Origin: Nitratidesulfovibrio sp. SRB-5
GTDB taxonomy: Bacteria; Desulfobacterota; Desulfovibrionia; Desulfovibrionales; Desulfovibrionaceae
DNA: 64,000 nt
Direction: 5' to 3'
Assembly: GCF_019931275.1 (NCBI RefSeq)
Contig: NZ_JAIOTY010000001.1
Span: forward strand, 1,054,001-1,118,000
Position numbers and translations under genes: made by a program
The notes under the pieces: generated by a model
Told to the model about the DNA's origin: nothing
Seen by the model: the letters and a program-made list of their open reading frames with translations, nothing else
Database searches by the model: none
Shown here: positions 4,085 to 44,063 of the stretch, one piece after another
Numbering within the stretch: position 1 is the stretch's first letter
Layout of the letters: every line of letters begins with the position of its first letter

Positions 4085-4206
4085 CGCGATCATGATCCCG
4101 TGCGCTACACGGTCGGTATTGGCACCTTGTCCCGACCGACGGCGTCACGTCAGGGCAGGTTGCCGGGCGGTCACAGGGCCGTACCCTCGCGCCTCTCTCC
4201 ATGAAT
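4085..4206 (-). promoter_or_regulatory. SAM-I (S-box) riboswitch aptamer
   Basis: On the minus strand the conserved SAM-I blocks appear in order: AGAGAGGCGCGAGGG, then GGCCC..TGA, then CCCGGCAACC, then AAGGTGCCAATACC. Next come a P4-like hairpin (CCGTG/CACGG) and a short P1 (TCATG/CATGA). These are the kink-turn, pseudoknot and ligand-binding segments of the S-box family. Known relatives bind S-adenosylmethionine and turn off methionine and SAM genes by terminating transcription, and the terminator at 4047-4070 fits that. Here the downstream gene is not a known methionine gene. Confidence 0.92.
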
Positions 4207-4212
4207 GGGGCA

Positions 4213-27116: not shown

Positions 27117-27207
27117 GGGGAGGGGACCCTTTGCGGCAGCCGTTAGGTGAGCACGAAGTGCGAACCTTACGGATGGCGACCGCAGAGCGAAAAGGGTCTC
27201 CCTCCCC
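27117..27207. repeat. terminator-like inverted repeat with conserved structured core (copy 1)
   Basis: Outer arms GGGGAGGGGACCCTTTGC (27117-27134) and GCG-AAAAGGGTCTCCCTCCCC (27187-27207) pair almost fully. Between them lies a core (27132-27185), with TGCGG/CCGCA and CCGTTAGGT/ACCTTACGG arms, that recurs at 42691-42739 with nearly identical sequence but different outer arms and apical loop. It separates the convergent GGDEF-EAL and lon genes and probably serves as their terminator. The conserved core is unexplained. Confidence 0.85.
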
Positions 27208-27217
27208 CGTTCGCTGT

Positions 27218-41206: not shown

Positions 41207-42445
<1,239 letters not shown>

Positions 42446-42560
42446 GGTTCGCCTCCGTGAATGGTTGTGGTCGCGCGGCGTCGGTATGCCGCGCGACCTC
42501 TGGAAATATCGTTCTCCCGTGTCCGGTTGGGGCGGGAGATGTTCTGCAAGCCTCCGGCGG

Positions 42561-42581
42561 GCAGGGGGCCAAGCCCCCTGC
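42561..42581. repeat. short perfect GC hairpin
   Basis: GCAGGGGGC, a CAA loop, then GCCCCCTGC. It sits in a GGCGGGCAGGGGGCC...CCCCTGCACCCCC context of a type I recall as a common dispersed intergenic element in bacteria of this group; that recollection is not checked. Confidence 0.55.
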
Positions 42582-42664
42582 ACCCCCGTTCAGGCAAGCG
42601 GGTTCGGACAGTGTCCGATGTCAGGCAGGACTGCAAACGTGCGGAGCGCGAGGCGGGGACGAGG

Positions 42665-42778
42665 AAAAAAGCCTTTTTGCGGAAGAAGTGTGCGGCAGCC
42701 GTTAGGTGAGTCTTCGAACCTTACGGATGGCGACCGCAGCGCGCTCTTCGGTATTCGACTGGAGCAAAAAGGCTTTTT
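42665..42778. repeat. terminator-like inverted repeat with conserved structured core (copy 2)
   Basis: Outer arms AAAAAGCCTTTTTGC (42666-42680) and GCAAAAAGGCTTTTT (42764-42778) are a perfect 15-bp inverted repeat. On the minus strand the hairpin ends in TTTTTTCC, so it can end the fabF transcript. The core (42691-42739) matches copy 1 at 27132-27185 except for its apical loop. The outer arms of the two copies are unrelated in sequence. Confidence 0.88.
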
Positions 42779-42815: not shown

Positions 42816-44063
42816 TTACCCCTTCCAGCGCTTGTACAGCATGCAGCAGTTCGTCCCGCCGAAGCCGAACGAATTGCACAGCACGTATTCGGGCTGGTAG
42901 TTTTCCGAGCCGTCCGCCATGTAGTTCAGGTCGCATTCCGGGTCGGGCGTTTCGCGGTTGATGGTGCCGGGGATGATGCCGGCGTGCAGCGCCATGACGC
43001 TGAACACGCCTTCCATCCCGCCCGCGGCGCCCAGCAGGTGCCCGGTCATGGACTTGTTGGCCGTGATGCGGATGTTCTTGGCATGGTCGCCGAACACCTT
43101 CTTGATGGCCTTGGTTTCGCACAGGTCGTTGAGGTGCGTCGAGGTGGCGTGGGCGTTGATGTGGTCCACGTCCTCGGGGCGGATGCCCGCCTCGTCGATG
43201 GCGGCGCGCATGGCCTGCGCCATGCCCAGGCCGTCCTCGTGCGGGGCGGTCATGTGATAGGCGTCGCCGGAGGCGCCGTAGCCCACCACTTCGGCGTAGA
43301 TGGTCGCGCCGCGCGCCTGCGCCGATTCCAACGATTCCAGCATCAGGAAGCCGGAGCCTTCACCGATGACGAAGCCGTCGCGGTCCTTGTCGAACGGGCG
43401 CGACGCCTTGGCCGGGTTGTCGTTGCTGGCGGTGGACAGCGCCTTCAGCGCGGTGAAGCCGGAAACGCCCATGGGCGTGATGGTGGCTTCCACGCCGCCG
43501 GTGATGACCGCGTCGCAGCGGCCCATGACGATGTCGGTGTAGGCGTAGCCGATGGCATGCTGGCCCGACGCGCAGGCGCTGGTGGTGACCAGGTTGGGCC
43601 CCTTGGCCCCGGTGAAGATGGAGACCTGGCCCGGCGCCATGTTGGAGATCAGCATGGGGATCATGAACGGCGAGACGCGGTTGGGCCCGGATTCGACGAG
43701 CTTGGAATGGAAGACCTCGATGGTTTGCAGCCCGCCAAGGCCCACGCCCAGCAGCACGCCCACGCGGTGGGCGTTGGAATCGTCGATGACGAGGCCGGAA
43801 TGCTCGACGAGCATCTTGCCGGTGGCCACCGCGAACTGGACGAAGCGGTCCATGCGCTTGGCCTGCTTGGCCGGGATGTACTTCTCTGGGTCGAAGCCCT
43901 TGACCTCGCCGGCGATGCGCGAGGTGTACTCCGAAGCGTCGAAGTGGGTGATGGGCCCGATGCCGGACTTTCCGGCCACCAGATTCTCCCAGCTTGTCGC
44001 AAGGTCGTTACCAAGGGGGGTGATGGCCGCAAGGCCGGTCACGACGACACGCTTTCCGGTCAT
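42816..44063 (-). CDS. fabF: 3-oxoacyl-ACP synthase II (FabF)
   Basis: FabF elongates acyl chains by condensing acyl-ACP with malonyl-ACP. The product has 415 residues, the usual size. The nucleophile is Cys164 in TTSACASGQH; the catalytic His pair lies in INAHATSTHLNDLCE and NKSMTGHLLGAAGG. It starts MTGKRVVVTGLAAITPLGND with a ribosome binding site AGAGGTACACTTA. It follows acpP by 180 bases that contain a striking palindrome (44182-44208) and is the last fab gene of the cluster. Confidence 0.97.
   Translation of the reverse strand: MTGKRVVVTGLAAITPLGNDLATSWENLVAGKSGIGPITHFDASEYTSRIAGEVKGFDPEKYIPAKQAKRMDRFVQFAVATGKMLVEHSGLVIDDSNAHRVGVLLGVGLGGLQTIEVFHSKLVESGPNRVSPFMIPMLISNMAPGQVSIFTGAKGPNLVTTSACASGQHAIGYAYTDIVMGRCDAVITGGVEATITPMGVSGFTALKALSTASNDNPAKASRPFDKDRDGFVIGEGSGFLMLESLESAQARGATIYAEVVGYGASGDAYHMTAPHEDGLGMAQAMRAAIDEAGIRPEDVDHINAHATSTHLNDLCETKAIKKVFGDHAKNIRITANKSMTGHLLGAAGGMEGVFSVMALHAGIIPGTINRETPDPECDLNYMADGSENYQPEYVLCNSFGFGGTNCCMLYKRWKG

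Follow-up and report, generated by a model that had tools for sequence, protein, structure and literature searches.

The two look-alike sequences in the window (the whole 64-kb stretch of Nitratidesulfovibrio sp. SRB-5 DNA analyzed here) are copies of a folded repeat of about 55 nt that is present more than 100 times per genome in these sulfate-reducing bacteria. The members of this family share one structure, are inserted precisely and preferentially in hairpins, and are sometimes nested in one another. The precise insertion seen at empty and filled sites, together with the insertion of the repeat into itself, identifies it as a non-autonomous mobile hairpin. We consider it quite probable that this element of 51 to 58 nt, found in many genera of the Desulfovibrionaceae, is inserted into pre-existing hairpins by a trans-acting enzyme.

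The core, TGCGGCAGCCGTTAGGTGAG..CGAACCTTACGGATGGCGACCGCA, can be read directly at 27132-27185 and 42691-42739. The copies differ in the apical hairpin and in the tail bases just beyond it and lie between arms of different sequence; the different arms had been observed in the earlier note. A covariance-model scan of the window found only these two strong copies, whose parts are as follows.

27117 to 27132, plus strand: left arm of the target hairpin of copy 1, GGGGAGGGGACCCTTT (from sequence and fold).
27133 to 27189, plus strand: copy 1, inserted unit GC...GCG (covariance-model match at 27131-27191, 77.3 bits, E = 5e−17; bounds from empty/filled pairs), made up of a proximal stem, the CCGT/ACGG stem with a T.T mismatch, tandem G.A, a variable apical hairpin, and the 3' tail CGCAGAGCG.
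27190 to 27207, plus strand: right arm of the target hairpin of copy 1, AAAAGGGTCTCCCTCCCC, with no T-run after it (from sequence and fold).
42671 to 42680, plus strand: outer hairpin arm at copy 2, GCCTTTTTGC (from sequence; pairs with 42764-42773 in the fold).
42682 to 42691, plus strand: left half of the target of copy 2, a small palindrome, GAAGAAGTGT (from sequence and empty allele).
42692 to 42743, plus strand: copy 2, with a short apical loop (covariance-model match at 42690-42745, 75.2 bits, E = 1.7e−16; empty allele).
42744 to 42751, plus strand: right half of that palindrome, CTCTTCGG (from sequence and empty allele, in which it reads ACTCTTCGG).
42764 to 42778, plus strand: outer hairpin arm at copy 2, GCAAAAAGGC, then TTTTT, an end that by its sequence appears intrinsic-terminator-like.

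The folds bear out the claim that a G/C-rich inverted repeat holds a foldable core of about 54 bases in its loop. The stretch from 27117 to 27210 folds at −57.6 kcal/mol, against −33.7 (standard deviation, 3.3) for 200 shuffles, none of which was as good (0/200), placing the whole hairpin of copy 1 7 standard deviations below shuffled sequences. Without arms, the core has a fold z-score of −5.1 in copy 1 and −2.4 in copy 2. The gap that holds copy 1 is indeed flanked by a convergent GGDEF-EAL gene and lon. Copy 2 lies between two minus-strand genes and hence not in a convergent gap; its neighbors are a ketoacyl-synthase (fabF-type) gene at 42816-44063 and an SHMT gene in the open reading frame (ORF) at 41207-42583. 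The copy 1 hairpin had been called terminator-like; its arms carry no T-run, and a terminator scan, which takes loops of 3 to 8 nt only, found nothing at copy 1 or copy 2.

The exact pattern GCCGTTAGGTGAG-N-CGAACCTTACGGATGGC occurs 7 times in the genome of origin, and a slightly shorter one has 13 occurrences there and between 3 and 23 in each of the eight genomes of the genus. The shorter pattern was absent from 91 other genomes of the family and order, and a control, the pattern read backwards, gave no matches. A public genome collection held the exact pattern in 68 stretches, titled Nitratidesulfovibrio or Desulfovibrio sp. with the exception of 1 Bilophila metagenome bin. Seven IMG/VR contigs (L265 to L271) also carry the pattern, and L265 has three related copies. 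A covariance model built from 30 copies (R1) gave at least 136 matches in the genome of origin and at least 121 to 149 per genome across the eight congeneric genomes, counts that are lower bounds because at most 150 candidates per genome were scored. Two syntenic 200-kb stretches carry 7 copies each, which fits about 140 copies per genome. Beyond the genus, R1 matched at least 52 of 119 genomes of the Desulfovibrionaceae, in at least 21 of 44 genera, and four genomes outside the genus had at least 123, 61, 30, and 26 matches. A second model (R2), built from 81 matches of many genera, had matches in at least 12 of 395 genomes of the phylum, all of the same family (at most 14 candidates scored per genome), and in at least 37 of 120 genomes of the order, all of family f1 (at most 47 candidates scored per genome, as in the scans of about 120 genomes generally). 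No element was seen outside the Desulfovibrionaceae among the candidates scored in these 395 and 120 genomes, an absence that is not absolute because the number of candidates per genome was limited.

Read from the foot, the folded element consists of a variable proximal stem, a G.A mismatch, CCGT/ACGG, a T.T mismatch, 3 to 4 covarying pairs, and tandem G.A, beyond which stands a free apical hairpin of 2 to at least 4 pairs with the loops CUUG, GAA, GUA, and others. The 3' side has a bulged A and one further pair and ends in the tail M-GCA-RM-G-M. This fold is real. Among 80 distinct sequences from many genera, 16 of 17 pairs show double-sided changes, and among 113 distinct genus-rich sequences 11 of 17 do, both far above the shuffled and slid controls; the covariation score of the 80 is 0.380, compared with 0.139 when shuffled and at most 0.092 when slid, measures that relatedness and model fitting inflate, as the tool warns. 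Inner-stem variants such as GGT/ACC, GGC/GCC, CAC/GTG, and TGC/GCA retain the tandem G.A. By mutual information, the pair outside the bulged A is complementary in 196 of 215 copies (G-C in 172, C-G in 11, A-T in 10, and T-A in 3), after exclusion of 5 of 220 segments in which GCA/GCG was not where expected. DNA folding parameters return the comparative structure for copy 1, and RNA parameters prefer a shifted one. One specific strand is probably the one that folds, because the modelled strand has more G.T pairs than A.C mismatches (30 versus 10 in A3 and 44 versus 7 in A5), in alignments fitted to a model that itself favors G.T over A.C.

How do we know that the element moves? On the 3' side of lon, the hairpin CCCTTTCCAAAGGG is empty in genome G006, while G003 and G007 carry the element on opposite strands; target hairpins of the copy 1 type occur element-free in relatives, e.g., G006 and G007. 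Across stretches of the eight genomes, a clean empty allele (at least 17 of 25 identical flanking bases on each side) was found for 21 of 35 copies, which we grouped into 11 distinct sites. The other 14 have diverged flanks, lie at a contig edge, or have orthologs that are all filled. The inserted unit is 51 to 58 nt long, starts with GC (or AC), and ends with GC followed by one base; at one site, for example, the filled allele reads CCTTTT-unit-TCAAAAGG and the empty one reads CCTTTTTCAAAAGG. With the insertion point marked by a caret, the empty allele of the copy 2 site in G007 is GAAGAAGTAT^ACTCTTC, and a similar one is present in G002. No target duplication of 2 nt or more was found at the 11 sites. 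At several of them the A after the insertion point reads G in the filled allele, leaving one base of the right junction ambiguous. The suspicion of the earlier note that this is a small mobile element targeting terminators is thus well supported by the 11 empty sites, the precise insertion, the preference for hairpin loops, and the use of both orientations. The element targets hairpins instead of building terminators; the latter, also suggested in that note, is unsupported because the empty alleles already have the hairpin arms. The checks proposed there (searching the genome and its relatives, looking for covariation among aligned copies, and comparing empty sites in related strains) gave the results above, and the outcome that would have spoken against the idea, just two copies with no conserved structure and none in relatives, is not what was found.

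At 5 of the 11 sites the unit sits in a terminator-like hairpin loop, and a perfect stem of 6 or more base pairs encloses the insertion point, compared with 3.1% of 77,348 intergenic positions. T^ACTCTT is common to 4 sites, mostly within the GAGTATACTC-type palindrome of another dispersed repeat, and 1 site adjoins a larger stem (ACCGA^CATGGCAGG). No hairpin is visible at the insertion point of the site GGGGGGA^TGGGGG. Hairpin targeting is therefore not the whole rule, since this last site is hairpin-free and the 4 sites share a motif and not a strong stem. The flanks of the same copy pair with a score of at least 8 in 50 of 129 distinct genus copies, versus 11.6% when arms are swapped between copies, and 8 of the 129 lie inside another copy, at CTT^ACGG or similar; these 129 are regular-expression picks from loci found by the exact pattern and the model and are consensus-leaning, with orthologs included. 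In genus g40, the hairpin that has ten copies in its loop, AGAGCAATTTC/GAAATTGCTCT, is quite unlike these, and it is element-free at L222 of another g40 genome. The targets are hairpins of several kinds (terminator-like loops, the GAGTATACTC palindrome, and the element itself) and not terminators alone.

Several side observations concern these surroundings. The g40 hairpin also forms a dispersed repeat of its own, some copies holding the element and others not (L306 to L312 and L318 to L320), and g40 elements also nest in the apical part of other elements (L222:970-1125, L322, and L325). A mosaic repeat of about 100 bp, GCCTGCCATG..GAGTATACTC..GTATTCGACCGA..CATGGCAGGC, is dispersed in the genus of the window (L014:1480-1700, L020, and L288:5160-5370) and offers two docking sites for the element, of which filled/empty combinations occur. 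In the G007 ortholog of L097:14134-14189, a long insert starting TGTAATGCCCCCC breaks up the matching terminator-like hairpin and looks like an insertion sequence, another mobile element in this type of hairpin. No clear leading- or lagging-strand bias was apparent by eye among the G007 matches listed.

By gene context, 15 of 35 copies are in convergent gaps, 15 in tandem gaps, and 1 in a divergent gap, with 4 overlapping a predicted ORF, on a background of 90 convergent, 161 tandem, and 68 divergent gaps among 319 (genes from a codon-usage caller; copies include orthologs). The 15 convergent and 15 tandem copies, placed at gene 3' ends, and the strong strand-specific covariation are what one would see if the repeat were a working RNA element of mRNA 3' ends (a terminator helper, a stability element, or a protein-binding site) selected in place. 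We think this very improbable, because site occupancy differs between close relatives, both orientations occur at one site (lon), copies accumulate nested inside each other, and 12 of the 15 tandem-gap copies, orthologs included, are antisense to the flanking genes.

Among the 129 distinct copies, subfamilies go with target classes, which is consistent, too, with local copying from one hairpin to a similar one. Ectopic gene conversion or template switching would spread the element if stalled replication or repair copied the loop content of a hairpin with similar arms and then returned; arm similarity would suffice, and no transposase would be needed. Many terminator-like arms are indeed alike (GGGGAGGG..CCCTTT), GCCTTAG units mostly follow GACCGA or GACTGA, and no candidate enzyme was found in searches for Y1 transposases and reverse transcriptases. 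We nonetheless judge this explanation improbable: identical unit ends are found between unrelated arms (CCCTTT/AAAGGG, GAGTATACTC, GCAGGGGG, and CTT^ACGG, with AGAGCAATTTC in another genus), and the arm homology is often shorter than 20 nt. Moreover, the internal G.A-rich structure and the unpaired tail are kept, so that copying alone does not explain the element. We set aside a guide-like rule, by which a tail base would match the base just ahead of the insertion point: T goes with C in 87 and A with A in 41 of 162 cases in the genus, and the rule fails in other genera, where T goes with A in 12 of 53. This association is likely a subfamily effect.

Returning to insertion by an enzyme, we infer three things: its substrate is the folded form, its target is single-stranded at the time of insertion, and it acts in trans. 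One strand of the element, which has a conserved 3' tail, would fold into a long imperfect hairpin; a putative trans-acting enzyme would recognize this folded strand and insert it, in either orientation and with no target-site duplication, into the loops or tips of existing hairpins. Its targets would be terminator-like hairpins at gene 3' ends, the GAGTATACTC hairpin repeat, and other copies of the element. The hairpin arms stay intact in such insertion, and this would account for the tolerance of the element. A bolder version, which we put forward tentatively and think unlikely, is that a structured single strand of 55 nt is spliced into the loop of another structured strand. The target might then be a DNA hairpin at the fork or an RNA hairpin later copied into DNA, and the enzyme would be neither a known Y1 transposase nor a Pfam-recognizable reverse transcriptase. 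If true, splicing into loops would represent a new mechanism of insertion, for which terminator hairpins provide the safe harbor.

Of the 8 congeneric genomes, 2 have Y1 transposases (Pfam PF01797), in fragmentary form, and in 30 other genomes of the family these genes occurred in 8 of 15 element-bearing genomes versus 6 of 15 that are element-poor or element-free. No element was near any of 12 Y1 loci within the fetched stretches. A reverse transcriptase is present in 2 of the 8 congeneric genomes. We rejected both as partners, the Y1 transposase (or REP-associated Y1 transposase, RAYT) and the reverse transcriptase, as their presence does not track the element; neither is needed in every element-bearing genome. 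In the genome of origin, what remains of a Y1 transposase gene contains a stop codon (G000:C1:239748-240005).

The closest known kind is the REP-type palindromic repeat, and we regard the element as a REP variant that forms its own new family and lands sharply in hairpins; we call it new because the GTAG/CGTC tags, the link to a RAYT, and the target duplication of MITEs were all missing. According to PMC3733652, REPs are likewise short palindromic intergenic sequences with tens to hundreds of copies, a preference for convergent and tandem gaps, and a tail at one end. The element differs in having no GTAG or CGTC tag, in being longer, with a bulged A, T.T, and tandem G.A, in its precise empty/filled pairs in terminator-like loops and its self-nesting, and in being seen only in Desulfovibrionaceae. 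Could it still be an ordinary repeat of the GTAG or CGTC superfamily moved by a RAYT? It is small and intergenic, has many copies of an imperfect palindrome with internal mismatches, and carries an unpaired tail. There is also precedent for landing in palindromes, as PMC3733652 reports three REP families inside them: the GTAG-15 dimers of A. variabilis, GTAG-23 of T. roseum, and CGTC-1 of H. neapolitanus. We give this explanation almost no weight, because the foot has no unpaired GTAG or CGTC, the tail is MGCARMGM, Y1 genes are absent or fragmentary in all 8 congeneric genomes (Pfam search), and Y1 genes show no association across genera and none near the element. Of the marks of GTAG REPs, many intergenic copies of a small palindrome are present. 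The unpaired GTAG at the hairpin foot is missing, the YAG columns before the inner stem being paired and covarying except for the last G, and no repeat-flanked Y1 gene was found in the 8 congeneric genomes, the 30 family genomes, and the 12 Y1 loci. Nor does the element have the unpaired CGTC tag, the stem of 8 to 9 bp, and the loop of 4 to 5 nt of CGTC REPs: the corresponding place on the complementary strand is mostly GGTC or TGTC, with bases partly paired, and the apical loop and stem vary freely. CGTC REPs, too, are described in PMC3733652 as having no dedicated transposase. The word Desulfovibrio is absent from the main text of that paper.

Resemblances to other systems are partial. Like REPINs and the substrates of TnpA-REP, the element is folded and non-autonomous, and unlike them it has no Y1 transposase partner that we could find; PMC8266576 describes REPINs as folded repeats that do not move autonomously and are presumed to be mobilized in trans in single-stranded form, with stem mismatches that matter for recognition. 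The element would also be like IS200/IS605 transposons (PMC6006769) if its substrate is a folded single strand, a question on which the strand polarity of the G.T pairs bears only indirectly; unlike them, it is non-coding, consists of a single hairpin where they have two ends, and is tracked by no Y1 gene. Like MITEs, the element is short, non-coding, structured, and mobile; unlike MITEs, it shows no target-site duplication at 11 sites, and its ends match over only about 2 bases (GC/GC). The IS200/IS605 family is likewise not known to duplicate its target. With the pneumococcal BOX and SPRITE repeats, compared by description and not by sequence, the element shares a modular intergenic nature, and SPRITE is, moreover, terminator-like and located at the 3' ends of genes (PMC3049150). 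The module described here, in contrast, enters a hairpin already present. The attC box of integrons is GTTRRRY, which GTTAGGY fits; we rejected this candidate because of the T.T mismatch on the partner side and because variants such as GTTATGC and GTTACAC break the box.

To our knowledge, most small bacterial repeats are known merely as repeats, their movement and landing being inferred. Here, a culturable genus offers family-wide filled and empty sites, a strongly covarying folded core, and a sharp landing habit, which makes the questions of the hairpin target and the enzyme directly testable. The element also illustrates that terminator-like loops can serve as tolerated landing places. We found no prior description of it in the literature searched, which mostly lacked subscription papers. 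No Rfam family matched the element at the gathering score in the window and 18 loci, and a low-threshold scan of copy 1 returned chance matches to miRNA and scaRNA families only. The "skipping-rope" motif, another candidate, was absent from that low-threshold scan, and none was found in the literature. Elsewhere in the window, the Rfam scan identified a SAM riboswitch (RF00162, 63.1 bits) at 4087-4207 on the minus strand.
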